From a virus: DNA of 64,000 nucleotides. The stretch is taken from positions 62,001 to 126,000 of the IMG/VR virus record IMGVR_UViG_3300022562_000747. The stretch is one strand, 5' to 3'. The notes below the pieces were generated by a model that worked only from the letters and a program-made list of their open reading frames with translations, was not told where the DNA came from and made no database searches. The translations under genes and the position numbers were made by a program. Shown here one piece after another: positions 110 through 25,244 of this stretch (its first letter is position 1; every line of letters begins with the position of its first letter).

Positions 110-3100
110 ATGTCAATTGCAACTGATCTTAATGTTCATCCTTATTATGATGATTATGATTCTTCGAAGGATTATTATAAAATCTTATTTCAACCGGGTG
201 TTGCTGTTCAAACCCGGGAATTGAATCAATTACAGACATTATTTCAGAACCAAATTGAAAAATTTGGAGATAATATATTTCAATCTGGAACCATTGTTTC
301 GGGTTGTAACTTTTTATTCTTGGGTAAAGTTCCTTACATAAAGATTAAAGACCAAACAGTTGAGGGAGGAAGTGTATCTCCATCAGCATATGTATTTTAT
401 CGAGTAACTAATGAAACAACTGGATTATCAGCCCAAGTAACTCAATCATATGATGGTTATGAAAGTGCTGATCCTGATCTAAAAACATTATATCTAAATT
501 ACATTAATACTGGTTATGATGCTAATACATTTACCTTTGCATCAGGTGATGTTTTAACAGTTTATGATGGAACAACCGTAGGTATTGAAAAAGTAAGTAT
601 AGCTAATAATGCAGGAGGTTCAGGATTTTCTAATACCGATCCAGTAATAATAATTCCGGAAATTGCTATTACAGTATTAACAGGTACATTTTCTAATGGT
701 GAATATATTACTAATGGTAGTGGAGCTAATCTCCAAATTATAGCCGTTGATACTGTAACATTAGCTAATAGTAATCAAACAATTCTTAAATTAAAACCAC
801 GCACTGTGGATTTGGCTAATGCTTCGGCAACTGCTAATTCATGGACTATATCAATGAACGAGAGTATTCTTGATATTGATTCATCTGCAACAGCAACAGT
901 CACCAAAATATTTGGTTCGGGTTTTTATGCAACAGCATTAACCGATCCTAATGGAACTATCATCAATATTGATGTTTCTAATAAAGGATTTGGTTTTGAT
1001 GAATTACCATTTATTACAATACAGTCAGCCGATAATGGTTCGGGAATTGATGCTCTTGATTTGGTTCCACAAAATTATGTGACACAAATTTCAGTAGCAA
1101 CAGTAGCTAATACAACAGGACATGGTTGTTTGTTTGGAATAAACGAAGGTGTAATTTATCAAAAAGGATATTTCCTTCGAGTTCTTTCTCAAAGTATTGT
1201 TGTGGACAAATATTCAACAGTTCCCGATGGTGTAGCAGTTGGATTTACTACCCAAGAAAGTATTATCAATTCCAATCTTGATACATCATTAAATGATCCA
1301 GCATATACTAAAAATCAAAATGCTCCGGGTGCCAATCGATTGAAATTGGTTCCTAAACTAACTCTTACAACTATTGATAATGCATTATCTAATACTAATA
1401 TCCTGCCACTTGTCGAATATAGTGAAGGTAAACCCTATATTCAGCGACAAAAAACAGTATATAGCAAAATTGGTGATAAAATTGCCGAAGGAATTGATGA
1501 CACGTCCGGTAATTTCTTTATTAATCCGTTTTTGATCACTACTCAATCCGATACAGCTAATGATACAGCCGCATCATTTGATACAATTATTGATCCGGGA
1601 ACTGCATATATAAGTGGTTATAAAGTTTCAACACAAAAGAATTATACATCTATATATCCAGTATCATTCTTAGAAGCAGTTCAAAATAATTTCTCCTATA
1701 ACTTGAATTATGGAAAGTATATTCGTCTTAATAATGTTGGAGGTTCATTCGAATTTAATACTGGTGATATTGTAACACTATATGATACAGCCAAACAATT
1801 TGGCGCTAATTCGACTCTTGTATATGATCAAAACACTAATCCAGTAGGAGTATCTATTGGAACGGCTCGAATGAGATATTTTGGCATTGAAACATTGACA
1901 CCGGGAAACCCAATCTATGATCTATATATTTTCGATATACAAATGGCTAATGGAAAAAGCTTTTCATCCACTCGTTCAATTCATTATAATGGTACAGCAA
2001 ATGGTGTTGCTGATATTGTAACTGAAACTAATACAACTACCGGATTAGAACAAGCTGTAATTATTGATCCAACACAAAATCAATTGGTTTTCCCAATTTC
2101 TTCAACCACCATTAGAAATATTGCTAATGTAACATATCAATATCGCACCTTTGATGATACATTAACAGTAAACACTTCGGGCTATATTGTAAAAAGTGTT
2201 TCATCCAATACAAATTTATTTTTTCCATTTACTGGAGATTTAACTTCCTCACAACTTACTGATTTGTATGTTGTTCCTACATCAATTGATCTTGTGTATG
2301 CAGCTAATACATCCGGAACGGTTTCGGTTAATACATCGTCAGCTAATCTTACAGGATCATCCACCAATTTCTTGTCGGAATATGTGGTTGGAGATTGGTT
2401 ATACATTTATGATGCAGCATCTCACGATTTGAAACAAGTTCAACGTGTAGTTAATAACACATTGATGACTGTTGATTCAAATATTTCATTTACTAATGCT
2501 ACCTCAAATATGACTCGGGTATTTCCAAAAGATATCCCAATTCCATTTGGTATGCGATCAGGTTTATCAGCCAATGTCGATGTAGGACAAAATATTCTTA
2601 CTATTAATCTTGGAGGAGCATTAACAACAGGATCACCACAACCAATATCTCTCGGGGTAAATATAAATCAAGTTGATATTGGTCAAGGAACTAAAACCCC
2701 TGTTCGTAATGCATATGTATTGTTACAATTATCTAATAATGAAAATGGAGTTATAGGTCCATGGTGTTTGGGTGTTCCGGATGTATTCCGTTTGCGAGGA
2801 GTCTATATTGGTAATTCATCAGTTAATAGTTCTAGCACTGATTATTTCAAAGATTTTTATATCGATAATAATCAAACGTTGGAATATCGAGGATTGAGTT
2901 GGTTCTATAAGAAACCAACCGCTACTGTTAATTTAACATCATCACAATATATTCTTGTAAAATTTGATTATTTTACAAGTTCGGGACCTTCTTATTATAA
3001 TCCAGTATCCTATATAAGTTCAAATGTAGATCAAATTATTGCAGCCGATTCCCTATCTCTAAATGGATTGGATGAAAATGCTGGTTCAATTAATACATGG

Positions 3101-4963
3101 GAAATTCCGGAATTTTTCAACAATGAAAATCGTGTTGATTTATTGAAATGCATCGATTTCAGACCTTCAGTTGCAAATACTTGTGTTCCAAGCACTAACT
3201 ATGCTACAGCACCCACAAATCCGGATTCAACAAAAACTTTTGATAATTCAGAAAAATATTTTCCTGTTCCAGAAACAGTTTTTACAACAAATAACGTAAC
3301 AACTTGTATTGGTAATTTTATTACATTTTTCATTGATAAAGATGGTAATTTTAGTTCGGCTAATTCTACTATTACTGGTAATAAAGTTGTTTCAGCCAAA
3401 ACACCACCGGATAATATTAAAATTGCTGATATTATTGTTCCTGATTATCCAGCTATTCCAATTAATAAATCTATTCGGTTAACTGAACTGTTGAATACAG
3501 GTGTATTGAATCAAAAATATTCATCAACTCGCCAATCGAATCATACAATAGCAGTCAAAAGTGTTATTAATCAAAATGAAGATCAAGTATATACTCAAAA
3601 AGATATTGGTAAAATTGATCGTCGGTTGAAAAATGTTGAATATTATGTTTCTCTAAATCAATTAGAAACAACAATGAATAATTTGATCATTCCAAGCGTA
3701 AATGATCCAGCATTGGCTCGCTATAAATTTGGATTTTTTGCAGTTGATTATTCTCAACCTGAATTATTAGACATGGGCGATCCACAATGGGCAGCAACTA
3801 ATAAAGATGGTTATATGTGGCCAGATCGTCTTGATTGGGATATTTATTTTGGTAATGAAGGTGGAGCATTGCCATATATGAATGAATTGATTATTTCTCA
3901 ACAAAACGCAACAACTGGAACTCTTACTAATCCAGATGCAATTCCCGATTGTGCTATCGATGTTGCTAATACAGTTGCATATCAATTGAAGTTACGTTCC
4001 GGTATAACTTATATAAACAACTTTAATATTATATTAGCTGATGCTGAACATATGGCTAATACAGTTTCGGTTGGTATGGGCGCTAATAGAGACTATTGGA
4101 ATAATGATCCAACAAGTTCCAGCGTCGAAGTTTTCTTTATAACTTATACTGATGCAATTAAAATTGAAATATATCAAGGAAATACTCTAATAGTTGATAC
4201 ATCTTCGGCTGAAAATTTGAGCGCAATTGATATATCTAATCTAACTGGTTCTAATTCAAATAAATGGTTCTATGATCCAACTGGTATATATTTGGTTAAT
4301 TTTACAGCCCAAGGAAATAATTTTGTTACAGGTTCAGGTAAAGTAACGTGGGATTATAACGGAACAGGTGGAACGGCTGTGACTATCAAGACTACTCGAT
4401 TAACTAATCCAGTTTTAGCTCCTACAACTAGTGGAGAAATTAGAGGGGGGCTTGTATGGAAAGAAGCAATAAGCTATCCAGTTAATGGATCAACAGCCGG
4501 TTGTGCGCCACCTCCTCCGACCATTCCATGGCATCCATCTCCAATTCCGGATTTGCCACCAATAGATATTGATTATCATGATTGTGGAAATGGTATGCAA
4601 GATGCTAATATAGAATGGATTCCTTTGGATATGCCATCTATACCAAATTTTACTACATATCCGTCTATTCCGGGTCCAACATATAGTCCCTTTAGTCCAC
4701 ATTATCGAAATATGGACCTTGTAAAAGACTCGCAAGGTCATCTTTATCTAGTTAGTAATGGAATGAATACTTGGGATTTAGCCGCATATAAGCCCGCAAA
4801 TCAACAGACCGTTACGGAAAATCCTATGGATAATACATTATCAACAGGAAGTAGTCAAGGATATAATATTATCCAAAATCAACTAATATGGACACCGTAT
4901 AGTGAAAGTGGTCCAAATTCATCGTTTAATTATGTTTCAGAACTTGTTAATATTCAATGGTAA
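110..4963 (+). CDS. large tail fibre/baseplate-associated protein, DUF4815-type N-terminus
   Basis: A 1617-residue virion protein. The first 60 residues (HPYYDDYD, then TRELNQLQ at 35-42) match the start of DUF4815 proteins, which in T4-like marine phages are large structural proteins attached to the baseplate or fibres. The body is rich in Asn, Thr, Ser and Val, as expected for a long beta-structured fibre. A proline-rich stretch lies near residues 1470-1530. The start is ATG behind AAAGGAATAAA. No catalytic motif was seen. It heads a rightward run of virion genes with small gaps. Its exact place in the particle is not readable from sequence. Confidence 0.85.
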   Translation: MSIATDLNVHPYYDDYDSSKDYYKILFQPGVAVQTRELNQLQTLFQNQIEKFGDNIFQSGTIVSGCNFLFLGKVPYIKIKDQTVEGGSVSPSAYVFYRVTNETTGLSAQVTQSYDGYESADPDLKTLYLNYINTGYDANTFTFASGDVLTVYDGTTVGIEKVSIANNAGGSGFSNTDPVIIIPEIAITVLTGTFSNGEYITNGSGANLQIIAVDTVTLANSNQTILKLKPRTVDLANASATANSWTISMNESILDIDSSATATVTKIFGSGFYATALTDPNGTIINIDVSNKGFGFDELPFITIQSADNGSGIDALDLVPQNYVTQISVATVANTTGHGCLFGINEGVIYQKGYFLRVLSQSIVVDKYSTVPDGVAVGFTTQESIINSNLDTSLNDPAYTKNQNAPGANRLKLVPKLTLTTIDNALSNTNILPLVEYSEGKPYIQRQKTVYSKIGDKIAEGIDDTSGNFFINPFLITTQSDTANDTAASFDTIIDPGTAYISGYKVSTQKNYTSIYPVSFLEAVQNNFSYNLNYGKYIRLNNVGGSFEFNTGDIVTLYDTAKQFGANSTLVYDQNTNPVGVSIGTARMRYFGIETLTPGNPIYDLYIFDIQMANGKSFSSTRSIHYNGTANGVADIVTETNTTTGLEQAVIIDPTQNQLVFPISSTTIRNIANVTYQYRTFDDTLTVNTSGYIVKSVSSNTNLFFPFTGDLTSSQLTDLYVVPTSIDLVYAANTSGTVSVNTSSANLTGSSTNFLSEYVVGDWLYIYDAASHDLKQVQRVVNNTLMTVDSNISFTNATSNMTRVFPKDIPIPFGMRSGLSANVDVGQNILTINLGGALTTGSPQPISLGVNINQVDIGQGTKTPVRNAYVLLQLSNNENGVIGPWCLGVPDVFRLRGVYIGNSSVNSSSTDYFKDFYIDNNQTLEYRGLSWFYKKPTATVNLTSSQYILVKFDYFTSSGPSYYNPVSYISSNVDQIIAADSLSLNGLDENAGSINTWEIPEFFNNENRVDLLKCIDFRPSVANTCVPSTNYATAPTNPDSTKTFDNSEKYFPVPETVFTTNNVTTCIGNFITFFIDKDGNFSSANSTITGNKVVSAKTPPDNIKIADIIVPDYPAIPINKSIRLTELLNTGVLNQKYSSTRQSNHTIAVKSVINQNEDQVYTQKDIGKIDRRLKNVEYYVSLNQLETTMNNLIIPSVNDPALARYKFGFFAVDYSQPELLDMGDPQWAATNKDGYMWPDRLDWDIYFGNEGGALPYMNELIISQQNATTGTLTNPDAIPDCAIDVANTVAYQLKLRSGITYINNFNIILADAEHMANTVSVGMGANRDYWNNDPTSSSVEVFFITYTDAIKIEIYQGNTLIVDTSSAENLSAIDISNLTGSNSNKWFYDPTGIYLVNFTAQGNNFVTGSGKVTWDYNGTGGTAVTIKTTRLTNPVLAPTTSGEIRGGLVWKEAISYPVNGSTAGCAPPPPTIPWHPSPIPDLPPIDIDYHDCGNGMQDANIEWIPLDMPSIPNFTTYPSIPGPTYSPFSPHYRNMDLVKDSQGHLYLVSNGMNTWDLAAYKPANQQTVTENPMDNTLSTGSSQGYNIIQNQLIWTPYSESGPNSSFNYVSELVNIQW

Positions 4964-9284: not shown

Positions 9285-12071
9285 ATGACCGCTAATACCC
9301 TAGTTATCAAGCTTGGAGGCTCGGATGGACGTGGTTCTCTAACATTCTATCGAGGATATACAGGTTCTCAGGGTGTGCCCGGGGAATATGCGGCTCTTGG
9401 TTATACTGGTTCGCAGGGTATTCAAGGTGATCCCGGGGGTTATACTGGTAGTCAAGGAGATACTGGATATACTGGTTCGCAAGGTATTCAAGGACCGGCT
9501 GGTGGATATACCGGTAGTCAGGGTGATGTTGGTTATGTTGGTTCGCAAGGTGATATTGGATATACTGGCTCGGTTGGTTTTGTTGGTTCGCAAGGTGATA
9601 CTGGTTACACCGGTTCGCATGGTGGTATTGGTTGGGTAGGTTCGCAAGGTGATAAAGGTTACACCGGATCGGCATCAACTGTCATTGGATATACAGGTAG
9701 CCAAGGTATTCAAGGTGATTCCGGATATACCGGATCAGCATCTACTGTTGTTGGATATACTGGTAGTTATGGTTATACTGGTTCGGCGGGAGCCGGATAT
9801 ACCGGATCAGCATCGGATGTAATTGGATATACTGGATCGATTGGTTACACTGGTAGTCAAGGCATCAAAGGAAACACCGGTTATACTGGATCAACAGGAA
9901 TTGGATATACCGGTTCGCGGGGTGGTATTGGTTGGGTTGGCTCGCAAGGTGACAAGGGTTATACTGGTTCACGTTCCACTGTAATAGGTTATACTGGTAG
10001 TAAAGGTGACAAGGGTGATCAAGGTGATGTGGGTTATACTGGTAGCGAAGGCTATTCTGGATCAACAGGATCAACTGGTTATCAAGGCTCGGCAGGTTAT
10101 CAAGGCTCGGTAGGTTATCAAGGATCGGTGGGTTATCAAGGATCAGCGGGTGTAACTGGTTATCAAGGATCAGGCGCACAAACTGGATATACTGGTTCAA
10201 TTGGTTATACTGGTAGTGAAGGTGTTGGATATACTGGTAGTCAAGGAACCCAAGGTAATATTGGATATACTGGTTCACAAGGAACCCAAGGTAACATTGG
10301 ATATACTGGTAGTCGAGGTTACACTGGTAGTCAAGGAACGCAAGGTGTAATTGGATATACCGGTAGCCAAGGAACCCAAGGTAACATCGGTTACACTGGT
10401 AGTCAAGGAACGCAAGGTAACATCGGTTACACTGGTAGTCAAGGAACGCAAGGTGTAATTGGATATACCGGTTCACAAGGAACCCAAGGTAATATTGGAT
10501 ATACTGGATCGGCTTCAACTGTAATTGGTTATACCGGTTCACAAGGAACTCAAGGCAACATCGGTTATACCGGTAGTGCATCGGAAGTGATTGGTTACAC
10601 CGGTAGTCAAGGTGATATTGGATATACCGGTAGTGCATCGGAAGTGATTGGTTACACTGGTTCGGCAGGTGTTGGTTATACTGGTAGTGCTTCAACAGTT
10701 ATAGGTTATACCGGTAGTCAAGGTGATATTGGATATACCGGTAGTGAAGGAATTGGTTATACTGGTAGTGCTTCAACTGTTCCCGGATATACTGGTAGTA
10801 AGGGTGATCAAGGTGATATTGGTTATACTGGTAGCGAAGGTTATTCTGGCTCGCAGGGTGAAGTTGGATATCAAGGATCAGCCGGAATTACAGGTTATAC
10901 CGGTAGTCAGGGTGATGTGGGTTATCAAGGTAGCCAAGGTATCACCGGTTATCAAGGATCAGGTGCACAAACTGGATATACTGGTAGTCAAGGATATACT
11001 GGTAGTCAAGGTGTTGGTTATACCGGTAGTGCATCGGAAGTGATTGGTTATACTGGTAGTCAAGGTGATATTGGATATACTGGTAGTGCATCGGAAGTAG
11101 TTGGTTATACTGGTAGCCAAGGTAACATTGGTTATACTGGTTCTGCTTCAACTGTTATTGGTTACACTGGTTCGGCAGGTGTTGGTTACACCGGATCGGC
11201 TGGTAGTGATGGTGCGGCGGGTTACACCGGTAGTCAAGGTTATACCGGTAGTCAAGGTATAGGTTATACTGGTTCAGCAGGAGCAGATGGGGGGCTTGGT
11301 TACACCGGATCGGCTGGTAGTGATGGTGCGGCGGGTTACACCGGTAGTCAAGGTGATATTGGTTATACTGGTAGTGAAGGTATTGGTTATACTGGTTCGG
11401 CGGGGGCTGATGGTGGTTTAGGTTACACTGGATCGCAAGGTTACACCGGATCAGCAGGTGTAGGTTACACTGGATCGGCTGGTAATGATGGAGGACTTGG
11501 TTACACTGGTAGCCAAGGTTACACTGGTAGTGAAGGTATTGGTTATACTGGTAGTGCATCCGAAGTGATTGGTTATACTGGATCGCAAGGTTACACCGGA
11601 TCGGCTGGCGTAGGTTACACTGGATCGGCTGGCGTAGGTTATACTGGATCGGCGGGTGTTGGCTACACCGGATCGGCTGGCGTAGGTTATACTGGATCGG
11701 CTGGATATACCGGTAGCCAAGGAACAACCGGAACAACAGGTCCAACATCACCTAAAGCAATTACTATTCCAGCCCCAGTAGCGGGTGATAGTTTCGCACT
11801 ATTTTGGTCTAATGTTGCAATAACAATTGCTGAAATTCGCACTGTTGTTGTTGGTTCGGCATCTCCATCTGTAAATGCATCATATTTCCATGGAACAGAT
11901 AGATCAGCCGGAACGACTATGCAAGCAAGTATCAATACATCAAGCACAACAACAGGTAATACCCAAACATCATTCTCTAATGCTACCCCGGCAGCAGGTT
12001 CATTCATTTGGGTAAATATCAATCAGGTAAGCGGAACAGTAAATTCCTATCATGCAACAATAAGGTTCTAA
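9285..12071 (+). CDS. collagen-like tail fibre with GYTGS repeats (fibre 1)
   Basis: A 928-residue fibre. Residues 1-23 are a short head. Residues 24 to about 815 are almost entirely Gly-X-Y triplets built on GYTGSQG, GYQGS and related units. The last 110 residues are a non-repetitive domain starting near TSPKAITIPAPVAGDSF, probably the trimeric tip. Collagen-like phage fibres form triple helices and present a C-terminal receptor-binding domain. The Gly-X-Y phase is broken many times by SASTVIG or SASEVIG, which should give bends. The Tyr, Thr and Ser content offers many hydroxyls for glycosylation, relevant to the glycosyltransferase operon downstream. Confidence 0.88.
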   Translation: MTANTLVIKLGGSDGRGSLTFYRGYTGSQGVPGEYAALGYTGSQGIQGDPGGYTGSQGDTGYTGSQGIQGPAGGYTGSQGDVGYVGSQGDIGYTGSVGFVGSQGDTGYTGSHGGIGWVGSQGDKGYTGSASTVIGYTGSQGIQGDSGYTGSASTVVGYTGSYGYTGSAGAGYTGSASDVIGYTGSIGYTGSQGIKGNTGYTGSTGIGYTGSRGGIGWVGSQGDKGYTGSRSTVIGYTGSKGDKGDQGDVGYTGSEGYSGSTGSTGYQGSAGYQGSVGYQGSVGYQGSAGVTGYQGSGAQTGYTGSIGYTGSEGVGYTGSQGTQGNIGYTGSQGTQGNIGYTGSRGYTGSQGTQGVIGYTGSQGTQGNIGYTGSQGTQGNIGYTGSQGTQGVIGYTGSQGTQGNIGYTGSASTVIGYTGSQGTQGNIGYTGSASEVIGYTGSQGDIGYTGSASEVIGYTGSAGVGYTGSASTVIGYTGSQGDIGYTGSEGIGYTGSASTVPGYTGSKGDQGDIGYTGSEGYSGSQGEVGYQGSAGITGYTGSQGDVGYQGSQGITGYQGSGAQTGYTGSQGYTGSQGVGYTGSASEVIGYTGSQGDIGYTGSASEVVGYTGSQGNIGYTGSASTVIGYTGSAGVGYTGSAGSDGAAGYTGSQGYTGSQGIGYTGSAGADGGLGYTGSAGSDGAAGYTGSQGDIGYTGSEGIGYTGSAGADGGLGYTGSQGYTGSAGVGYTGSAGNDGGLGYTGSQGYTGSEGIGYTGSASEVIGYTGSQGYTGSAGVGYTGSAGVGYTGSAGVGYTGSAGVGYTGSAGYTGSQGTTGTTGPTSPKAITIPAPVAGDSFALFWSNVAITIAEIRTVVVGSASPSVNASYFHGTDRSAGTTMQASINTSSTTTGNTQTSFSNATPAAGSFIWVNINQVSGTVNSYHATIRF
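9354..11745 (+). repeat. coding repeat array, collagen-like GYTGS units
   Basis: A tandem coding repeat of 9-, 15- and 18-bp units on the theme GGTTATACTGGTAGTCAAGG. Codons are varied synonymously between copies (GGT/GGA, TAT/TAC, ACT/ACC, AGT/TCG/TCA), so the protein repeats better than the DNA. Confidence 0.9.
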
Positions 12072-14962: not shown

Positions 14963-15331
14963 ATGGCAAATGTACTAAACAGAACCACAAAAGTATATCT
15001 TGAATCGGTCAATACTCCGGATTATCCGGATACTGATTGGATTATCAATCCTGATTTGTCAGCCGTTGCGGGTTGGCCTGCCAAATATTGGATAATTACC
15101 GGTGATGTAGTTACCCTTATGGATGCAAGCGCAAGAGCAACCGTTGATGCTGACGAATTAGCAGCGCAACGAGATGCTCTTGTGGCTCAAATGGATCAAG
15201 TTGAAAGCTACACCCGGGCATTTGCCTTGGTTGTTCTGGACGAAATAAACAACCTACGAGCATTGCATAGTTTGGCTGATCGAACTATTGCTCAATTGAA
15301 AAATTCTGTTCGTAATAAATTAGGTAGCTAA
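14963..15331 (+). CDS. small virion protein (fibre-associated)
   Basis: A 122-residue protein. Residues 10-55 (VYLESVNTPDYP, then WIINPDLSAVAGWPAKYW) match a small structural protein seen beside fibre genes in several marine phages. The second half (LAAQRDALVAQMDQ, then LHSLADRTIAQLKN) is helical. Its 3' end overlaps the convergent methyltransferase gene by 12 bp. Exact function is unknown. Confidence 0.7.
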   Translation: MANVLNRTTKVYLESVNTPDYPDTDWIINPDLSAVAGWPAKYWIITGDVVTLMDASARATVDADELAAQRDALVAQMDQVESYTRAFALVVLDEINNLRALHSLADRTIAQLKNSVRNKLGS

Positions 15332-17524
15332 TTTTTTTCGGAAATGGTAATCGCCATCTACTGACTTGCCGTTCAATATATTCGGACAAAAAGCTCCATT
15401 ACCCATCAATTTGAAACCAATACTGTCAAGATAATTGATAACATCTCCCGCCATGGGCGCACCTTTATTGTAAGATACCGTCTGCAATTCAAGGATCAAA
15501 TCATTGCAATGTTGCAAGGTATAATGTGCCCCCTTGAGAATGTCCATTTCGGCTCCTTGCACATCCATTTTGATCAAATCAGGCATTGGAAAATTTTCAA
15601 CCTTTACAACTGTATCAAGAGTTTTGGTTATACGTTTTTGTTTATGGCTTTCGTTTAGAATATCGTCAATATTGGGAACAAACTCTTTATTGACCTTGAA
15701 ATAACCATTACCCCCGGGATCGAAATCATTCTGCCAGAAGTCTATTTCCTTATCATCCTTGTCGCTTAGAACCCCAATGTAATAAGGGATATTTTGTTCC
15801 TTATACAAAAACTCGGCTTGATCAAATGCATCAAAAGCATAATAATTCGCATCAGCCCAAACAAATTTAGCCATATTGGTCCAATGCAGAACACAGGCTC
15901 CAATATCATAAATGATACGCGGGTTCCAACCCTCGGTATTTTTCAGGTGTAACAGGTAATCATAATGTTTCTTGGGGATAAGTTGCTGGCTTCCAAGGTC
16001 ACGCAAACGCTGTTCAAGAGAGTCGGCAGGCTTGGTAATAGTGAAATTACCTAGAGGTGGCACCACATACTCGGTTGTGCCAAGATGGCGACACTTCACG
16101 GATGTATCAGCATATAACTTGAAGCCCTTTTCCGTTGCTTTGCGACAGAAATAGTTATCTTCGGTTATATCCCCCACATGTTCCAGCGATCCTACCCAAT
16201 AAAACTGAGGATAACCAACCGTAGTAATGACTTCCTTTTTAATCAAAACACATCCAAACCCACATCCCCCAATCTCAATTAGCTTGTTATCCGGAATATT
16301 ATTTCGGCTCATACGTCGCATGGATAGATCATATAGTTCAATGTTTTCAGTTCCCGGAATGCGTTGAATATACACCCCCGAAACCAATGGAACATCATGG
16401 CTCAATAATTTTTTTAATGTATCAGGCGGAAAAGCAATATCGCTATCAACTGCCCATAGATAATCAAACCCCTTGACAACCCAATCGGCAATTAGATTGC
16501 GGACTTGGGATATATTATTACCAAAAAAACATTGAAAAGTTGTTTCATAACCTGCTGGTATTTCCTGATCATAAATCGATTTGAAACATTCGGTATCGAT
16601 ATATTTGAACGTAGGAATGGCGATAAGAATTTTCTTTGCCGGGGGTTTCATAATATTTTTTATACTAGGACTTTGTTGAACAAATGATGATAATCCGAAT
16701 GGTAATTCTGTTTTCTTATCTTGAATTGAAGGCATATCTCCTGCAATTACTTGTTTTATTATTGAATCCACAATAGGGGTATCGCTATTAGCGATAATCT
16801 TATTAGCCGTCATTGTTTGTTCATCCTTGTTTACCTTGTAATCATTCAGAGGATTAGTATCGTTATAATTATAAACTACATCTTGAATAACCTTGATCTT
16901 ATTTGGGTCAGCTTGTTCGAGAATATTATAGAATACCGCAACATCGCCCCCGGCTCGGAACCATTTTTTATTTTCATCTCTAAATTTTTCGAAAGGAACC
17001 TTTTCTGCCAAATAATTTCGAAACACGCGGGGATGGTCGTAAGGTATATTCCAAGCAAATTTATGTGAGCGATATGCTTTGCTTTTTAGAATATTAGGAG
17101 GATATTCTTGGGCAATCAATGGAATTTTATCAACCATTGACCAACAGGACCCATAACAATATTCATAACCCTGATGGAATATTTCATTATACATATTGAA
17201 TATTTCGGGATTGTTTACAAGCGAATCATCGCCGTCCAATAGCATTATAATATCATCCGGCTCGGCATATTTTCGAATGGTGGTTATTTGGTTATAGACG
17301 GCTCCCATGTTTTGAGAACCAACTACAAATTCTATCTTATCTTCACATCCAATATCTTCTATTGCTTTACAAGCAACATCATAACTATTATCGGTGCTGG
17401 CATCGTCAATCAGAATATGTTTATAATTTGTATAGTTTTGAGCGGTAACTGATCGTATGCATTTCTCAATGTATTTCTCCGCATTCCAAAACGGTGAAAT
17501 GATTACAATTCTTTGTTCTTCCAT
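15320..17524 (-). CDS. three-domain glycosyltransferase-FkbM methyltransferase fusion
   Basis: A 734-residue enzyme on the minus strand. Residues 5-235 are a GT2 glycosyltransferase (ISPFWNAEKYIEKCI, LIDDASTDNS at 38-47, LLDGDD at 95-100). Residues about 298-500 are a second GT-A-like domain (ILIAIPTFKYID, then WAVDSDIAF at 357-365). Residues about 530-705 are an FkbM-type SAM methyltransferase (IYDIGACVLHW, then LIKMDVQGAEMDILKGA at 650-666). It should transfer one or two sugars and O-methylate one. It starts one base into the stop of the upstream glycosyltransferase (TAATG coupling). It lacks a signal peptide or membrane helix, so it acts in the cytoplasm. Targets may be the collagen-like fibres that flank it, or host glycans. 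Confidence 0.85.
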   Translation of the reverse strand: MEEQRIVIISPFWNAEKYIEKCIRSVTAQNYTNYKHILIDDASTDNSYDVACKAIEDIGCEDKIEFVVGSQNMGAVYNQITTIRKYAEPDDIIMLLDGDDSLVNNPEIFNMYNEIFHQGYEYCYGSCWSMVDKIPLIAQEYPPNILKSKAYRSHKFAWNIPYDHPRVFRNYLAEKVPFEKFRDENKKWFRAGGDVAVFYNILEQADPNKIKVIQDVVYNYNDTNPLNDYKVNKDEQTMTANKIIANSDTPIVDSIIKQVIAGDMPSIQDKKTELPFGLSSFVQQSPSIKNIMKPPAKKILIAIPTFKYIDTECFKSIYDQEIPAGYETTFQCFFGNNISQVRNLIADWVVKGFDYLWAVDSDIAFPPDTLKKLLSHDVPLVSGVYIQRIPGTENIELYDLSMRRMSRNNIPDNKLIEIGGCGFGCVLIKKEVITTVGYPQFYWVGSLEHVGDITEDNYFCRKATEKGFKLYADTSVKCRHLGTTEYVVPPLGNFTITKPADSLEQRLRDLGSQQLIPKKHYDYLLHLKNTEGWNPRIIYDIGACVLHWTNMAKFVWADANYYAFDAFDQAEFLYKEQNIPYYIGVLSDKDDKEIDFWQNDFDPGGNGYFKVNKEFVPNIDDILNESHKQKRITKTLDTVVKVENFPMPDLIKMDVQGAEMDILKGAHYTLQHCNDLILELQTVSYNKGAPMAGDVINYLDSIGFKLMGNGAFCPNILNGKSVDGDYHFRKKLAT

Positions 17525-18801
17525 TATAGAAAATCCTCGGGATTGGCAAAACGACGCCCAAATATCTGATGAATACGTTTATTGATATATTTGACTTGTA
17601 GATATTCCTCAACCGGTAAATATTCTCCAAGCACATTATAAAAATGCTGCTTCCATTGTAGGGCTATGCTATCCCATTGGGAATATGGCTTGACTATATT
17701 ACAATAATGGGCTTTTTGTTTCCACAGGTATTTGTCAGCATGAGCGCGTAACATCATATCAAGAAATCGATTCACCTGCTCATCCTTGTTGATATTGGGA
17801 AACAAGCCATTTGGTTCAACTGGATAATCAAGCAAATATGATGCTTTATCAATTGCCGTTTCTTCCATGGCTCCAAACCGACAACCGATAATGGGGGTAT
17901 TGTAATTCAATGCTTCAAGGGCTGATATTCCAAATGTTTCGGGAAAGGCTCCGGGAGCAACATAATATGATGCTTTGGTCAATAAATCAGCAATTTCGTC
18001 TTGTTTGATAATACCCGTAAAAGTAATGTTCTTATTGTTAGGTAATGCCTTCAATTCATGCCATCTCTTTTCCTGATCGTCGGGTTGTCTATCCGGAAAA
18101 CGATAAAATCCTCCAATAATAACTAATTTAGCGTGAGGAACCTGTTCAATAAATTTTGGCCAAATATCTTTTACAAGAGGAACCATACCTTTGGTAAGGG
18201 ATGCATTATAGATAAACAAATTGGGGTCTTTGGCAAAAACATTGACCCAATCATGATAACGTCGCATTCCATCTCGGGTCTGAAATATTTTATTCTTGAG
18301 AACTTCAAACATTCGTTTAGCTCCATGATCACAATTAGTCACATAAACAGAATGGAAGTCAGATAAAGTAAAAATCTTGTCAAATCTTTTATTGACAATC
18401 ATATGTTCAACAAATGGATCGGAGCCTTGCACAAATGTATCATGCATCCATAACACTTTATATTTGGCTGTTTTTATAATGTTATTGAATTTAGGATCGC
18501 CGGTATAGGGAGCAATAGAACGAGAAGATATTATGATATCAATATTTGAACAGCTACTTATCCCATTTAGATTTATATAGTTGACCCCATCATAAACACC
18601 GGGATGGGTATCATCTTCGCCACAACGGTTGAAAACAGTTACTTGAAATCCAAGTTTGACCAATTCGGGGGCAATAAGGATTACGGACGATTCACTCCCG
18701 CCCAAGCCACGTTTTTTTAGGGTATCCCCACAATAAGGAAGTCCTAAAACATCAATAAAAGCTATGCTTAAATTCAATTCATTCACCTTATAAATTACCA
18801 T
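17524..18801 (-). CDS. GT-B (GT4-like) glycosyltransferase
   Basis: A 425-residue protein. GT-B features are visible: GGSESSVILIAPELVKLG in the N-terminal Rossmann half, KLVIIGGFYR and NITFTGIIKQDEIADLL in the second half, then the donor-binding FPETFGISALEALNYNTPII with the EX7E-type acid pair. A longer frame begins at 18837 but runs across the -10 box of its own promoter, so the ATG at 18801 is chosen. A TTG at 18777 behind AAGGTGA is an alternative. It is first in the two-gene minus-strand operon with the fusion enzyme. Confidence 0.85.
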   Translation of the reverse strand: MVIYKVNELNLSIAFIDVLGLPYCGDTLKKRGLGGSESSVILIAPELVKLGFQVTVFNRCGEDDTHPGVYDGVNYINLNGISSCSNIDIIISSRSIAPYTGDPKFNNIIKTAKYKVLWMHDTFVQGSDPFVEHMIVNKRFDKIFTLSDFHSVYVTNCDHGAKRMFEVLKNKIFQTRDGMRRYHDWVNVFAKDPNLFIYNASLTKGMVPLVKDIWPKFIEQVPHAKLVIIGGFYRFPDRQPDDQEKRWHELKALPNNKNITFTGIIKQDEIADLLTKASYYVAPGAFPETFGISALEALNYNTPIIGCRFGAMEETAIDKASYLLDYPVEPNGLFPNINKDEQVNRFLDMMLRAHADKYLWKQKAHYCNIVKPYSQWDSIALQWKQHFYNVLGEYLPVEEYLQVKYINKRIHQIFGRRFANPEDFL

Positions 18802-18806
18802 AAATA
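18799..18806 (+). promoter_or_regulatory. candidate late promoter box (CATAAATA)
   Basis: CATAAATA on the plus strand points at the collagen-like fibre at 18888, 81 bp away. It overlaps the start codon of the leftward glycosyltransferase, so late transcription of the fibre would begin within the glycosyltransferase control region. Confidence 0.35.
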
Positions 18807-18825
18807 GATTGAGATGATTAGCTAT

Positions 18826-18854
18826 ATTATATCGCAATTGCTGATCATTGTCAA
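18826..18854 (-). promoter_or_regulatory. perfect-consensus sigma70-type promoter for the glycosyltransferase operon
   Basis: Read on the minus strand: TTGACA (18854-18849), 17 bp, TATAAT (18831-18826), both hexamers perfect. A transcript would start near 18819 and reach the ATG at 18801 with a short leader. This implies early expression by unmodified host RNA polymerase, unlike the flanking late fibre genes. Confidence 0.85.
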
Positions 18855-18887: not shown

Positions 18888-20078
18888 ATGTCAAACAAAG
18901 ATTTTCATGTTCGTAATGGTATATGGGTTGATGATGGTCAGACTATTTATGTCGGAAATTCCAGCCAAAATACAACAATTTCTAGTCAAAGCATTGTAGT
19001 TGGAAATTCTGCTTCTAATGCAGTTATAAATTCATCCGGATTTTCTTTCGGAGGACAATCACTTGGTTACGGATATACCGGCTCGCGTGGAACATTAGGA
19101 TATACTGGATCAATTGGATATTCGGGTAGCCAAGGTTATGCTGGATCAATGGGTGTTACTGGTTATCAAGGTTCCGCAGGTGTTACCGGTTATCAAGGAT
19201 CAACAGGATATCGTGGATCAGCCGGTCTTACCGGTTATCAAGGTTCCCAAGGTGTTACTGGCTACCAAGGATCGGGAGCACAAACTGGATATACAGGGTC
19301 GCAAGGTGTTCTTGGATATACTGGTTCAGCTTCGACAGTCATTGGTTATACTGGTAGTAAAGGTTATTCAGGTAGCCAAGGTGATCTTGGTTATACCGGA
19401 TCAGCATCTACTGTTGTTGGATATACTGGTAGTCAAGGTATTACTGGATATAGTGGATCAAAAGGCTATTCAGGTTCAATTGGTTATACCGGTAGTGGAT
19501 TTAAATGGCAAGGTTCTTGGCAAGCTTCAACATGGTATTATGTGCAAGATGTTGTATTGTATAATAATTCCAGTTATACTTGTATTCAAGATTGTTATGA
19601 TATAGCACCATCTAATCCAACTTATTGGACTATAATGGCGGCTCAAGGTTCAACTGGATATGTTGGATCATTTGGATATACCGGTAGTGCTTCAACAGTT
19701 GTTGGATATACTGGGTCAGTAGGATATACAGGATCAGTTTCTAATGCAGCAACACCTGTAACAATTACAGATGGATCAGGACAAACATTTGATGCTCAAA
19801 ATGGTTTAACAACTATAGCTCGTCTTTCAGCAACAAGTAATCGTACATTAGTTGCTCCAACTAATCCAGTTGATGGACAAAAAGTTATTATTGAACATTA
19901 TGCATCGGGAGGAACTAGAACTCTTTCTTTAACTGTTGGATCGGCAGGAGCATTTCGTTATGGAGATGATATAACAGGATTAAGTGCAACATCTTCCGGA
20001 AAGATAGATCGTATTGGAGTAATTTATAGGGAAGGCGTAGATCGTTGGGATGTTGTAGCTGTAGTTAAAGGATTTTAA
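18888..20078 (+). CDS. collagen-like tail fibre with embedded carbohydrate-binding-like insert (fibre 2)
   Basis: A 396-residue fibre. The ATG at 18888 behind GGGGAAAGG is preferred to a TTG at 18870. Residues 1-57 are a head (MSNKDFHVRNGIWV). Then come GYTGS/GYQGS triplets, broken at about residues 204-255 by KWQGSWQASTWYYVQDVVLY, a pattern like small CBM5/12 chitin-binding modules in fibres. A non-repetitive C-terminal domain of about 110 residues follows (TITDGSGQTFDAQNG onward). It is divergent from the glycosyltransferase operon. Confidence 0.85.
   Translation: MSNKDFHVRNGIWVDDGQTIYVGNSSQNTTISSQSIVVGNSASNAVINSSGFSFGGQSLGYGYTGSRGTLGYTGSIGYSGSQGYAGSMGVTGYQGSAGVTGYQGSTGYRGSAGLTGYQGSQGVTGYQGSGAQTGYTGSQGVLGYTGSASTVIGYTGSKGYSGSQGDLGYTGSASTVVGYTGSQGITGYSGSKGYSGSIGYTGSGFKWQGSWQASTWYYVQDVVLYNNSSYTCIQDCYDIAPSNPTYWTIMAAQGSTGYVGSFGYTGSASTVVGYTGSVGYTGSVSNAATPVTITDGSGQTFDAQNGLTTIARLSATSNRTLVAPTNPVDGQKVIIEHYASGGTRTLSLTVGSAGAFRYGDDITGLSATSSGKIDRIGVIYREGVDRWDVVAVVKGF
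19063..19740 (+). repeat. coding repeat array, collagen-like GYTGS/GYQGS units
   Basis: Gly-X-Y coding repeats interrupted by the insert at about 19499-19650. A block reading TGYQGSGAQTGYTGSQG is shared almost unchanged with fibres 1 and 3. Confidence 0.88.
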
Positions 20079-20779: not shown

Positions 20780-23700
20780 ATGTCAAACAACAGCGTTTCA
20801 AAAACTCTTTGGGTAAAATTTGATCAAGATAATTATTCTTCATCGAATATTGTCGAAGAAGCTCGCTGGTTTTCTTCACCCGCTGAATTTAATTTTGAAG
20901 GATCAGGAGGAAATTTTCTTGGAACAGTTGAAGATGTTCCAGCAATTGTCGGTAATACTCAAGCTGGTTTATACGGAGGAAATGGTTATCTTATTGTTTC
21001 ATCCAATGGCATTGAAGTAAGCACTAGTTTATCAGTAAATGGAACACCCGTTGGTTATGGTTATACCGGTAGTCAAGGATATACCGGTTCAATAGGATAT
21101 ACTGGTTCAGCATCGGAAGTTCCGGGATATACAGGATCAGAAGGTCCAGCCGGGGGCTACACCGGATCGGCAGGTTACACTGGTAGTAAAGGTGATCCCG
21201 GGGGTTACACTGGATCAGCAGGATACACTGGTAGTAAAGGTGATATTGGTTATACCGGATCAGGGGGAGGCGGTGGAGGATATACCGGTTCAGCAGGATA
21301 TACCGGATCGGCGGGATATGCCGGTAGTAAAGGTGATCCCGGAGGTTATACTGGATCGGCAGGTTATACCGGTAGTCAAGGAACCCAAGGTAACATCGGT
21401 TATACCGGTAGTCAAGGAACAGGTTATACCGGTAGTCTTGGTTATACTGGTAGTGCAGGTGTCGGATATACCGGTAGTGCTTCAACTGTAATTGGATATA
21501 CGGGTAGTCAAGGTTATACTGGTAGTCAAGGAACTCAAGGTGTAATTGGATATACCGGTAGCCAAGGAACGCAAGGTAATATTGGATATACTGGATCGCA
21601 AGGAACCCAAGGCAATATCGGATATACCGGTAGTCTTGGTTATACTGGCTCGCAAGGAATTGGTTATACCGGATCAGCTTCAACAGTAATAGGTTATACT
21701 GGTAGTAAGGGTGATCAAGGTGATATTGGTTATACTGGTAGTGAAGGTTATTCTGGCTCGCAAGGTGAGGTAGGTTATCAAGGATCGGCGGGATATACCG
21801 GTAGTCAGGGTGATGTTGGATATCAAGGATCAACTGGTTATCAGGGTTCTCAAGGTATCACCGGTTATCAAGGATCAGGAGCGCAAACTGGATATACGGG
21901 TAGTCAAGGTTATACTGGTAGTCAAGGAACTCAAGGTGTAATTGGATATACCGGTAGCCAAGGAACGCAAGGTAATATTGGATATACTGGATCAGCTTCA
22001 ACTGTAATTGGTTATACGGGTAGCCAAGGTAATATTGGTTATACGGGTAGTCAAGGTGTTATTGGATATACCGGTAGTCTTGGTTATACAGGATCGGCAG
22101 GAGTTGGTTATACTGGATCGGCTTCAACTGTAATTGGTTATACGGGTAGTATTGGTTACACTGGTTCAATGGGAACTGGTAGTAGCATTACAGTTTCAAA
22201 TACAGAACCATCAAGTCCATCAAATGGAGATTTGTGGTTTGATCTAAACACTGGTTTATTAGTAGCATATGTTGATGATGGAGATAGTCAACAATGGGTT
22301 GAAATTGGTCCAAGCCCTCAAGGACCGGCTGGTTATACTGGTAGCCAAGGTCCGGGGGGTGGTTATACTGGTTCGGCTTCAACTGAACCGGGATACACTG
22401 GTAGCCAAGGATATACCGGTAGTCAAGGTGATATTGGTTATACTGGTTCAGCTTCAACTGTAATTGGATATACCGGTAGTCAAGGTGATATTGGTTACAC
22501 TGGTAGCCAAGGTGTTGGTTATACTGGTAGTGCATCCGAAGTAATTGGTTACACTGGTAGTCAAGGTAATCTTGGTTATACCGGATCAGCTTCAACAGTT
22601 ATCGGATATACCGGTAGTCAAGGACCAATTGGTTATACTGGTTCTGCATCCGAAGTAATTGGTTACACTGGTAGCCAAGGACCAATTGGTTATACCGGAT
22701 CGGCTTCAACTGTAATTGGTTATACTGGTAGTCAAGGTCCGATAGGATATACTGGTTCGCAAGGAATCCAAGGTGTAATTGGTTATACTGGAAGTCAGGG
22801 AATACAAGGCAATATTGGTTACACTGGTAGCCAAGGAACGCAAGGTGTAATTGGTTATACTGGAAGTCAGGGAATACAAGGTAATATCGGATATACCGGA
22901 TCGGCTTCAACTGTAATTGGTTATACTGGTAGCCAAGGTTACACTGGTAGTCAAGGTATAGGTTATACTGGTTCAGCTTCGACTGTTCCGGGTTATACTG
23001 GTTCTAAAGGCGATCAAGGTGATATTGGTTATACTGGTTCACAAGGAGTTGCGGGTGAAACCGGTTATCAAGGTAGTCAGGGTGATGTTGGATATCAAGG
23101 ATCAACTGGTTATCAAGGTAGTCAAGGTATCACTGGTTATCAAGGATCGGGAGCGCAAACTGGATATACGGGTAGTCAAGGTTATACTGGTAGTCAAGGA
23201 ACTCAAGGTGTTATCGGTTACACTGGTTCACAGGGAACTCAAGGTGTAATTGGTTATACCGGTAGTCAAGGAACGCAAGGTAATATCGGTTACACCGGTA
23301 GTCAAGGTGATCAAGGTGTTATCGGTTACACTGGCTCGCAAGGAACTCAAGGCAACATCGGTTATACCGGTAGCCAAGGAACGCAAGGTAATATTGGATA
23401 TACTGGATCAGCTTCAACTGTAATTGGTTATACGGGTAGCCAAGGTAATATCGGTTATACTGGTTCGGGAGGCGGGGGTGCCAGCGTTACAATTTCCTCC
23501 ACAGAGCCAGCAAGTCCAATAAGTGGAGATTTATGGTATGATCTAAACACTGGTTTGTTGGTAGTATATGTTGATGATGGAGATAGTGAACAATGGGTTG
23601 AAATTGGTCCAAGTCCGCAAGGTCTTACTGGTTATACTGGTTCGGCAGGTCTAGGTTATACAGGTTCGGCAGGTTATACTGGAAGTGCTTCAACCGCAGT

Positions 23701-24385
23701 TGGTTACACTGGTAGTCAAGGTAATATCGGTTATACCGGATCGGCTTCAACTGAACCGGGATATACTGGTAGTCTTGGTTATACTGGATCAGCGGGGGCT
23801 GGTTATACTGGTAGTCAAGGTTATACTGGATCAGGAGGAAGCGGAAGTCTTACTATATATGATGATGGTGTGATAACATCAACTTATGCTCCTGATCCTA
23901 CCAACGGAAATTATCATTTAGTAATATCTAACGGAGCAATAACATTATCAAAACCAACATCAAATTGTTTGTTTTATGTGCAATATGTAAATGGACCAGC
24001 GGCAGGCGGGCTTTCCTATCCAGATTATAGAGTTGGAAGCAGCGTTGGAGATACTTTTTCAGCTAATCCACGATCAAGTGCTTCTGTTACAATAAACCAA
24101 AGCACTGATTATATTACATGGAGTGGTCATGGTTTTGAAGTCTCCGACCCATGTTGGTTTAGAGCAGGTGTAATGATGCCGGGAAACGTTACAGCAAACC
24201 AAATCTATTATATTTCTTATATAACTAATTCTTCTGCCTTCAAAATTGCCAGTAGTCCGGGGGGAGCTAATGTAAATATTACTAGTAACGGTTCATTGGT
24301 TAACTGTTATGCCGCTTCCATTTATAATCTTACTGTATCATGCATAAATGATATAGCCACAATTACTGTAAAATCTTTGACCTAA
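20780..24385 (+). CDS. collagen-like tail fibre with two globular inserts (fibre 3)
   Basis: A 1201-residue fibre, the longest of the three. A head of about 90 residues (KTLWVKFDQDNYSSSNIVEE) leads into GYTGS repeats. Two near-identical globular inserts at about residues 469-515 and 902-948 read SNGDLWFDLNTGLLVAYVDD and SGDLWYDLNTGLLVVYVDD, each followed by QWVEIGPSPQG. A non-repetitive domain of about 180 residues ends the protein. The inserts are a fibre domain often seen in cyanophage-like viruses. There are many Gly-X-Y interruptions of the SASTVIG type. Confidence 0.87.
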   Translation: MSNNSVSKTLWVKFDQDNYSSSNIVEEARWFSSPAEFNFEGSGGNFLGTVEDVPAIVGNTQAGLYGGNGYLIVSSNGIEVSTSLSVNGTPVGYGYTGSQGYTGSIGYTGSASEVPGYTGSEGPAGGYTGSAGYTGSKGDPGGYTGSAGYTGSKGDIGYTGSGGGGGGYTGSAGYTGSAGYAGSKGDPGGYTGSAGYTGSQGTQGNIGYTGSQGTGYTGSLGYTGSAGVGYTGSASTVIGYTGSQGYTGSQGTQGVIGYTGSQGTQGNIGYTGSQGTQGNIGYTGSLGYTGSQGIGYTGSASTVIGYTGSKGDQGDIGYTGSEGYSGSQGEVGYQGSAGYTGSQGDVGYQGSTGYQGSQGITGYQGSGAQTGYTGSQGYTGSQGTQGVIGYTGSQGTQGNIGYTGSASTVIGYTGSQGNIGYTGSQGVIGYTGSLGYTGSAGVGYTGSASTVIGYTGSIGYTGSMGTGSSITVSNTEPSSPSNGDLWFDLNTGLLVAYVDDGDSQQWVEIGPSPQGPAGYTGSQGPGGGYTGSASTEPGYTGSQGYTGSQGDIGYTGSASTVIGYTGSQGDIGYTGSQGVGYTGSASEVIGYTGSQGNLGYTGSASTVIGYTGSQGPIGYTGSASEVIGYTGSQGPIGYTGSASTVIGYTGSQGPIGYTGSQGIQGVIGYTGSQGIQGNIGYTGSQGTQGVIGYTGSQGIQGNIGYTGSASTVIGYTGSQGYTGSQGIGYTGSASTVPGYTGSKGDQGDIGYTGSQGVAGETGYQGSQGDVGYQGSTGYQGSQGITGYQGSGAQTGYTGSQGYTGSQGTQGVIGYTGSQGTQGVIGYTGSQGTQGNIGYTGSQGDQGVIGYTGSQGTQGNIGYTGSQGTQGNIGYTGSASTVIGYTGSQGNIGYTGSGGGGASVTISSTEPASPISGDLWYDLNTGLLVVYVDDGDSEQWVEIGPSPQGLTGYTGSAGLGYTGSAGYTGSASTAVGYTGSQGNIGYTGSASTEPGYTGSLGYTGSAGAGYTGSQGYTGSGGSGSLTIYDDGVITSTYAPDPTNGNYHLVISNGAITLSKPTSNCLFYVQYVNGPAAGGLSYPDYRVGSSVGDTFSANPRSSASVTINQSTDYITWSGHGFEVSDPCWFRAGVMMPGNVTANQIYYISYITNSSAFKIASSPGGANVNITSNGSLVNCYAASIYNLTVSCINDIATITVKSLT
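21053..23840 (+). repeat. coding repeat array, collagen-like GYTGS units
   Basis: A repeat array of the same family as fibres 1 and 2, with two inserts near 22185-22320 and 23485-23625. Repeat order is shuffled relative to fibre 1, but blocks of several units are shared, which fits recombination between the genes. Confidence 0.9.
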
Positions 24386-24430: not shown

Positions 24431-25186
24431 ATGGCATATCCAGCACTTTCCGCCAAAAATCCGACTGATCGGGCTAGTTTCAAGGAATATTGCCTACGCC
24501 GATTGGGAAAGCCGGTTATCGAAATAAATGTGGATGATGATCAAGTCGAAGATCGAATTGACGATGCTCTCCAATATTGGTTTGAATATCATTATGATGG
24601 AAGTGAAACCCAATATTACAAATATCAAATCACCGACCAAGATCGAATAAACGGTTATATTACTCTACCGGACAATATAATTGGAGCCGTTGAAATCTTC
24701 GATATCAGCGACCAATACGGGGTCCAAAATATGTTCAATATCCGGTATCAGATTGCCTTGAACGATCTATATACCCTGACTTCGGTATCCTTGGTTCCAT
24801 ATTACATGGCTATGCAGCACCTTTCCTTATTAGCTGAAGTTCTTGTGGGCAAGCAACCTATTCGATATAACAAATATAATAACCAATTACATATTGATAC
24901 CGATTGGTCCAATTTTACTGGATCATGGGTTATGGTCAAAGCTTATAGTGTTATCGATCCTGACCAATGGACTGCTGCATGGTCAGACCGTTTTCTAAAG
25001 GAATATGGAACTCAATTAATCAAGCGACAATGGGGCGAACATCTAAAGAAATTTGGCGGAATGAGAATGCCTGATGGAACCATTCTGAACGGTAAGGAAA
25101 TTTGGGATGAAGCTAATCAAGAAATAACTCGTCTTGAACATGAAATGTCGCGAATGACAATGCCAGCAATGGATATGATTGGCTGA
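24431..25186 (+). CDS. 13: gp13 neck protein
   Basis: A 251-residue protein, close in size to cyanophage gp13 and shorter than T4 gp13. It is assigned from synteny (directly before 14-15-16-17) and from its sequence: FKEYCLRRLGKPVIEINVDD, then YHYDGSETQYYKYQIT and GYITLPDNI. gp13 and gp14 close the packaged head and join it to the tail. The gene is separated from gene 14 by a free-standing homing endonuclease. Confidence 0.85.
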   Translation: MAYPALSAKNPTDRASFKEYCLRRLGKPVIEINVDDDQVEDRIDDALQYWFEYHYDGSETQYYKYQITDQDRINGYITLPDNIIGAVEIFDISDQYGVQNMFNIRYQIALNDLYTLTSVSLVPYYMAMQHLSLLAEVLVGKQPIRYNKYNNQLHIDTDWSNFTGSWVMVKAYSVIDPDQWTAAWSDRFLKEYGTQLIKRQWGEHLKKFGGMRMPDGTILNGKEIWDEANQEITRLEHEMSRMTMPAMDMIG

Positions 25187-25220: not shown

Positions 25221-25244
25221 CTCTATACAACTATGGAGGCTATT

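Follow-up and report, generated by a model that had tools for sequence, protein, structure and literature searches.

We identified, in the 64,000-nucleotide stretch of viral DNA analysed here (the window), a predicted four-module glycan-assembly enzyme composed of a GT4-like GT-B glycosyltransferase (GT), a GT2 domain, a second GT-A domain and a terminal FkbM O-methyltransferase. It is encoded by an operon of two minus-strand genes (15320-17524 and 17524-18786) with intact motifs, located among genes for collagen-like fibres with GYTGS repeats (Table 1). Judging from these genes, this T4-like aquatic phage probably adds a short sugar chain to its own fibres (or to the host surface), since relatives in many uncultured phages retain the order of the domains, and frequently also the neighbour and a host-type promoter of their own. 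Glycosylation of the collagen-like fibres by the operon is the reading that we favour, with about even confidence.

Table 1. Features of the fibre island and the enzyme operon (window coordinates)
Feature	Position	Strand	Details and evidence
VrlC homologue, left border of variable fibre island	110..4963	+	tblastn to annotated VrlC proteins
Collagen-like GYTGS fibre gene	9285..12071	+	928 aa, 72 GYTGS
Laminin-G protein	13613-14947		
Predicted FkbM-type methyltransferase domain, plus stop	15320..16024	-	residues 501-734 of 734-aa protein; Pfam Methyltransf_21
Second GT-A domain, DSD motif	16061..16639	-	residues 296-488 of 734-aa protein; PHROG glycosyltransferase matches and alignment
GT2 (GT-A) domain, DGDD motif	16790..17524	-	residues 1-245 of 734-aa protein; Pfam Glycos_transf_2
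TAATG stop/start overlap of the two enzyme genes	17522..17526	-	
GT-B (GT4-like) glycosyltransferase gene	17524..18786	-	Pfam Glycos_transf_1; start and motifs kept in relatives; structural matches
Late-box-like site CATAAATA facing fibre gene 18888	18799..18806	+	inside the enzyme's leader
Sigma70-type promoter TTGACA-17-TATAAT of enzyme operon	18826..18854	-	12/12 match, 17-nt spacer
Collagen-like GYTGS fibre gene, divergent from enzyme operon	18888..20078	+	Pfam Collagen, PHROG tail fiber
Collagen-like GYTGS fibre gene	20780..24385	+	1201 aa, 82 GYTGS
Neck protein, right border of island	24431..25186	+	PHROG head-tail adaptor; tblastn to neck proteins

Enzyme Operon and Fibre Island

A reading made from the sequence only had described a two-gene minus-strand operon with GT-B, GT2, GT-A and FkbM domains, and ORF, Pfam, PHROG and motif analyses bore this out. 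The GT-B protein matched Glycos_transf_1 (E=8e-15, 55.1 bits against a Pfam cut-off of 26.4), which assigns it to the GT4-like family, and contained an E-x7-E motif whose E288 and E296 were invariant in the alignment of relatives; its predicted model (pTM 0.86) had a GT-B fold with GT4 enzymes as structural matches. Its ORF is open upstream to TTG 18837, the ORF-finder's start and a codon within the promoter; the conserved N-termini of relatives align at GTG 18786 or TTG 18777, one of which is more likely the true start. In the 734-aa protein, the GT2 domain matched Glycos_transf_2 (E=1e-19, 71.4 bits, cut-off 23.3) and had an invariant acidic metal-binding motif, DGDD 97-100; a GtrB-like PHROG match spanned this domain only. 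The second GT-A domain was under the Pfam cut-off, matched PHROG glycosyltransferases and had an invariant DSD motif. The C-terminal domain is a predicted FkbM methyltransferase, matching Methyltransf_21 over profile positions 1-173 of 173 (E=1e-12, 48.5 bits, cut-off 22.7) with an invariant MDVQGAE motif.

The TAATG overlap suggests coupled translation of the two genes. The window has the split form of a multi-module enzyme, two overlapping genes that are probably co-translated; in many relatives the enzyme is one polypeptide. The hydropathy of the two proteins (KD19 maxima 1.34 and 1.59) showed no strongly hydrophobic segment, and hence neither has a membrane anchor of the kind found in Gtr systems. 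The epimerase family PF01370 was not detected in the 181-kb record, so the host, or genes that escaped recognition, would have to supply the donor sugars. No near-identical DNA was found in sequenced phages, and no RNA families or tRNAs were found in the window.

The VrlC homologue and the neck gene flank both fibres and GTs, which identifies the region as a host recognition cluster, defined in PMC7029224 as a variable fibre island with GTs that extends from VrlC to the neck gene gp14. GTs within this island are not new, being known from pelagimyophages and cyanomyophages (PMC7029224). What is new here is the fixed GT-B/GT2/GT-A order, the GYTGS neighbour, the recurrent own promoter, the fibre-linked occurrence and a bacterial match limited to a phage contig. 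As the sequence-only reading had stated, the operon is opposite in strand to the GYTGS fibre genes on both flanks, and the fibres are rich in Ser, Thr and Tyr (together 33-35% of the three GYTGS proteins); Lys accounted for only 1-2%.

Promoter and Late Boxes

The perfect TTGACA-17-TATAAT reported before the operon was confirmed. Only two perfect sites with 16-18-nt spacers were present in the 181-kb record, and the one at 18854-18826(-) alone sits close before an ORF. Because weak promoter-like sites were not enriched in the region around the operon (54 found versus 58.8 expected), the case for this promoter depends on its full 12/12 match and on the fact that relatives have one too: a sigma70-type promoter with at most one mismatch preceded 16/30 non-redundant enzymes versus 6/211 other genes at the same loci. 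Some GYTGS-linked enzymes had a late-box-like sequence only and no sigma70 site. With its own promoter of the host sigma70 type, the enzyme could be made ahead of late-gene onset.

The further claim that the fibres have late boxes held in part. Fibre gene 20780 had TATAAACA 31 nt upstream and fibre gene 18888 had CATAAATA about 90 nt upstream, but no late box preceded fibre gene 9285, and the exact TATAAATA on the plus strand preceded only scaffold and capsid genes. Among relatives, exact xATAAATA was present on the fibre strand in 13 of 15 divergent regions.

Relatives and Their Neighbours

In uncultured relatives the order was always GT-B, GT2, GT-A, usually within one ORF (such as the fused ORF of L004, 1144 aa long), and methyltransferases were optional. 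No full-length relative was found in sequenced phages, and the sole match in bacterial genomes was a phage contig inside a MAG, which argues against a borrowed host O-antigen enzyme.

Co-occurrence of GYTGS fibres with these enzymes in relatives, a check proposed in the sequence-only reading, was examined next. A divergent GYTGS fibre was the upstream neighbour in 13/37 non-redundant tree rows from several lineages, and gene by gene the GYTGS collagen-like type was the commonest fibre-type neighbour of the enzyme. The enzyme was present in 10/15 fibre-selected versus 0/13 neutrally (capsid-) selected long contigs, and collagen in 10/13 enzyme-selected versus 4/13 capsid-selected ones, these contigs being fragments and not independent. 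On the other hand, the virion proteins beside one enzyme clade were Gly/Ser/Thr-rich or laminin-like and had no GYTGS repeats, and non-fibre neighbours were frequent in the double-GT-B clade. The opposite orientation of enzyme and fibre was frequent, not universal; at loci L037 and L038 the GYTGS fibre lay next to the enzyme on the same strand.

Collagen fibres were found with the PF01391 profile, for which there was a positive record; the GYTGS repeat as a tblastn query, used without a positive control, gave no match. In nine contigs with a minimum length of 50 kb, the distance from the selecting fibre to the enzyme did not differ significantly from random placement (combined p=0.19); adjacency was then judged gene by gene. 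A pattern scan for relatives via the neck-closure gene gave nothing usable.

Acceptor of the Predicted Glycan

The sequence-only reading had offered two models, in which enzymes made early either glycosylate the fibres or alter host glycans. The enzyme-fibre link, seen in both neighbourhood and co-occurrence, and the recurrent sigma70-type promoter bear on them; the two were not separated, because nothing in the sequence reveals the acceptor. In the fibre model, we infer an enzyme that is made early, acts in the cytoplasm and would build a short, methyl-capped, O-linked oligosaccharide on the neighbouring fibres during their synthesis, at their Ser/Thr/Tyr-rich repeats; the phage may benefit from a sugar coat that would shield, stiffen or diversify them. 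More tentatively, and somewhat below even confidence, we propose that this undescribed, apparently phage-restricted modular GT-B/GT2/GT-A(/methyltransferase) family is a dedicated collagen-fibre glycosylation system, in many lineages arranged as a divergent switch: a sigma70 promoter would face the enzyme gene and a late promoter the substrate gene, which would have the enzyme ready by the time the fibre is made. The linkage may partly reflect a hotspot, given that enzyme and fibres occupy a common variable island. Collagen-like phage fibres also occur without such enzymes (4/13 neutral contigs, as well as sequenced phages), and collagen-like proteins of E. coli prophages carried no glycosylation when produced recombinantly in the absence of such an enzyme (PMC3368898); glycosylation is thus no general need of such fibres.

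The main alternative, though a less likely one, is that early in infection the enzyme lengthens and methylates a glycan of the host surface (O-chain, capsule or lipid-linked unit), which would block superinfection or prevent new virions from sticking to debris; its place among the fibres would then reflect a common role in host recognition. An own sigma70-type promoter fits host take-over, the structural matches include polysaccharide polymerases and teichoic-acid and LPS GTs, the neighbours in some relatives are non-fibre genes or other glycan modifiers, and host O-chain modification is what the authors favour for same-island GTs of related phages (PMC7029224). Against it stand the specific association with collagen-like fibre genes, an enzyme family found in bacteria only on a phage contig, and proteins lacking strongly hydrophobic segments. 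The operon also has no flippase-like or membrane-anchored partner; a Gtr-type O-antigen conversion module was considered and set aside, as the two genes include neither a GtrA flippase nor a membrane-anchored GtrB.

It is quite improbable that the fibre is merely adjacent and the acceptor a different protein of the virion (capsid, baseplate or the nearby laminin-G-like protein). The laminin-G gene in the window, the clade beside non-GYTGS virion proteins and the reported capsid and tail-tube glycosylation of mycobacteriophages (as cited in PMC12619734) would agree with such a target; however, GYTGS collagen-like fibres are the commonest fibre-type neighbours.

In T4-like phages the classic GTs are those that glucosylate DNA, yet glucosylation of phage DNA in the T4 fashion is most improbable and was rejected, since the thymidylate synthase/dCMP-hydroxymethylase family PF00303 was missing from the (possibly incomplete) 181-kb record, in which positive controls were found; moreover, the modules are GT4, GT2 and FkbM and the operon sits in a structural island.

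To our knowledge, few cases of phage virion glycosylation have been described, and most phage GTs are assumed to target DNA or the host O-chain. If the operon does glycosylate the fibres, the recurrence of such a multi-module, apparently phage-restricted enzyme and its association with collagen-like fibres would suggest that aquatic phages widely glycosylate their fibres. The question of the acceptor is directly testable, since the modules follow a set order in a single chain.

Comparison with Known Systems

The top fold and profile matches of the 734-aa protein were Pasteurella heparosan synthase 2 and E. coli K4 chondroitin polymerase, which likewise have tandem GT-A domains, and GalT1 (5hea), likewise a GT-A enzyme. 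However, TM-scores were 0.22-0.34 over two domains with identity of at most 22%, and the former two are capsule polymerases and GalT1 is bacterial; none is from a phage. Known enzymes that put sugar on collagen-like proteins include Mimivirus L230 and human COLGALT1; a Foldseek comparison of the 734-aa protein had COLGALT1 as one of its matches (E=6e-10). L230 and COLGALT1 act on hydroxylysine, in contrast to the low Lys content of the GYTGS fibres, and their TM-scores of 0.22-0.30 reflect common GT-A folds, not membership.

Mycobacteriophages, likened here by description and not by sequence, encode GTs that put sugar on structural proteins (as cited in PMC12619734), but their hosts are actinobacteria and the targets are capsid and tail tube instead of collagen-like fibres. 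The closest setting is that of pelagimyophages and cyanomyophages, likewise T4-like aquatic phages with fibres and GTs in a VrlC-to-neck island; their GTs are mostly described as GT8-type O-chain modifiers, and the fixed GT-B/GT2/GT-A/FkbM chain, recurrent promoter and collagen-fibre partner are not described for them in the available text of PMC7029224.

Virus-encoded multi-domain GT chains are also found in the chlorovirus PBCV-1, in A064R (two rhamnosyltransferases and a methyltransferase) and A111/114R (three GTs). A064R finishes the virus's own capsid glycan, and early expression is described for the GT genes of PBCV-1 (PMC9614988). PBCV-1 differs in being a eukaryotic algal virus that modifies a capsid N-glycan, not fibres, with other GT families, so that the likeness is one of function and no homology is claimed. 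As in A064R, several GT modules and a methyltransferase are combined in one chain or operon; with its methyltransferase likewise last and its action on the virus's own structural protein, A064R provides a precedent for glycosylation of the fibres.

Domain composition and genomic location

The virus record is 181,157 bases long (the window being its bases 62001–126000) and encodes a T4-like core, including terminase, sheath, portal, scaffold and a major capsid protein that was at most 59% identical to those of sequenced phages (best match, Stenotrophomonas phage DLP_6). The sequence-only reading had described a divergent glycosyltransferase (GT)/methyltransferase operon amid collagen-like fibres, and its genes, domains, perfect promoter and orientation opposing the fibres on both sides were all confirmed. 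The two genes share a TAATG overlap, and the catalytic motifs E-x7-E, DGDD, DSD and MDVQGAE showed no variation when the proteins were aligned with 14 and 17 relatives. The GT-B protein gave a good AlphaFold model (pTM 0.86) and was grouped by Foldseek with GT4 enzymes; the 734-aa protein, whose model was good per domain and loose overall (pTM 0.39), was grouped with tandem GT-A enzymes.

Features of the operon and other loci in the window
Feature	Position	Strand	Remark
VrlC homologue	110–4963		left of operon
GT4-like GT-B enzyme and 734-aa protein (GT2, second GT-A, FkbM methyltransferase domain)	15320–18786	−	two genes
Perfect TTGACA-17-TATAAT	18854–18826		ahead of operon
Neck gene	24431		right of operon
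195-aa ORF	25233–25820	+	between two neck genes
289-aa protein	53806–54672	+	free-standing, early region

The 289-aa protein matched PHROG 1574 ("unknown function", E=5e-53), as did the enzyme's second GT-A domain; since the two have this family in common and are 22% identical, it is probably another GT-A enzyme. The start of the 195-aa ORF (FIYIWFDRKHKRYYIGSHWGS) resembles GIY-YIG homing endonucleases, and this ORF had no Pfam match at E≤0.01.

Distribution of the enzyme family

Dozens of relatives (approximately 45–60% identity per module) were detected in IMG/VR, always in the order GT-B, GT2, GT-A and then, when present, FkbM. Most were single ORFs and several were split after GT2; a split after GT-B was observed in the window alone. 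One clade had a second GT-B domain, some members lacked FkbM, and others had additional methyltransferases. None of 50,697 sequenced-phage records matched the protein over its full length. A scan of 84,980 bacterial and archaeal species genomes relied on two short peptide patterns, so that absence from bacteria holds at that sensitivity only, and gave one match, a 12-kb contig that had been assigned to a gammaproteobacterial bin (L130, NZZP01000034.1). This contig is a T4-like phage with two neck genes, several GYTGS fibres and a divergent enzyme.

The neighbouring divergent gene in one relative (L104:6051–7874) encodes a Nol-like carbamoyltransferase (PHROG 1601, E=9e-162), a hint that the sugars may be carbamoylated. 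In one clade, the enzyme is directly followed by a gene for a DNA/RNA non-specific endonuclease (PF01223; L005:11897–12709, L111:15958–16791, L003:4097–4713).

Association with collagen-like fibres

A divergent GYTGS fibre was the direct upstream neighbour in 13/37 non-redundant tree rows from several separate lineages, and in L037/L038 that position is taken by a GYTGS fibre on the enzyme's own strand. Of 15 fibre-selected contigs with a length of 36 kb or more, 10 contained the enzyme (6/6 of those of at least 100 kb), compared with 0/13 neutral contigs picked by a capsid gene (p=0.0003), and collagen repeats occurred in 10/13 enzyme-picked versus 4/13 capsid-picked contigs (p=0.047), all these contigs being fragments and not independent. 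One clade adjoins Gly/Ser/Thr-rich or laminin-like virion proteins instead of GYTGS fibres. Neighbours of the double-GT-B clade were mixed.

Promoters and timing

The record contains two perfect TTGACA/TATAAT sites, and only that of the operon stands directly before an ORF. Within 120 bases ahead of the enzyme, a sigma70-type site with no more than one mismatch was present in 16/30 non-redundant relatives versus 6/211 other genes of the same loci (Fisher p=2e-12, a rough value because the cases have common ancestry). Such sites were found both with enzymes pointing away from a fibre and with those downstream of a same-strand virion gene, showing that the family has a recurrent promoter of its own. 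We infer that the enzyme is expressed early. On the fibre strand, exact xATAAATA was present in 13/15 divergent regions (own-strand occurrence in control leaders, 69/211), its counterpart in the window being CATAAATA at 18799.

The earlier interpretation, in which enzymes made early glycosylate fibres later or alter host glycans early, was partly supported, through the fibre association and the recurrent promoter. Timing probably differs within the family, because some GYTGS-linked enzymes (L067, L082, L097) are preceded by late-box-like sequence but lack a good sigma70 site. In L064, L069, L101 and L130, the region upstream of the enzyme, between it and the fibre, contains a palindrome, TATTTATAAATA, which places a TATAAATA-like late box on each strand immediately 3′ to the sigma70-type −10.

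Possible function and comparison with known systems

The best reading is a fibre-decorating assembly line, which would add a few sugars, often with a methyl cap, to the repeats of the phage's own fibres, 33–35% of whose residues are Ser, Thr or Tyr. Recombinant E. coli prophage collagen-like proteins, produced without such an enzyme, were unglycosylated (PMC3368898), so phage collagen-like fibres can manage without sugar. The main rival is modification of the host surface. The operon's site between the VrlC homologue and the neck gene corresponds to what is called the host recognition cluster in pelagimyophages and cyanomyophages; GTs have already been reported amid the fibre genes there and were interpreted as host O-chain modifiers (PMC7029224). 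DNA glucosylation is unlikely.

GTs among fibres at this genomic place are already known. In the isolates Cr30 and Melnitz-3, the annotated genes of the corresponding stretch are all on one strand. In the window, the operon opposes its flanking fibre genes. What is new is the multi-module architecture, apparently restricted to phages, together with its recurrent promoter and its link to collagen-like fibres. In function, PBCV-1 A064R comes closest to the proposed fibre-decorating assembly line: it is a GT-GT-methyltransferase chain which finishes the virus's own capsid glycan. The same source describes early expression of the PBCV-1 GT genes (PMC9614988).
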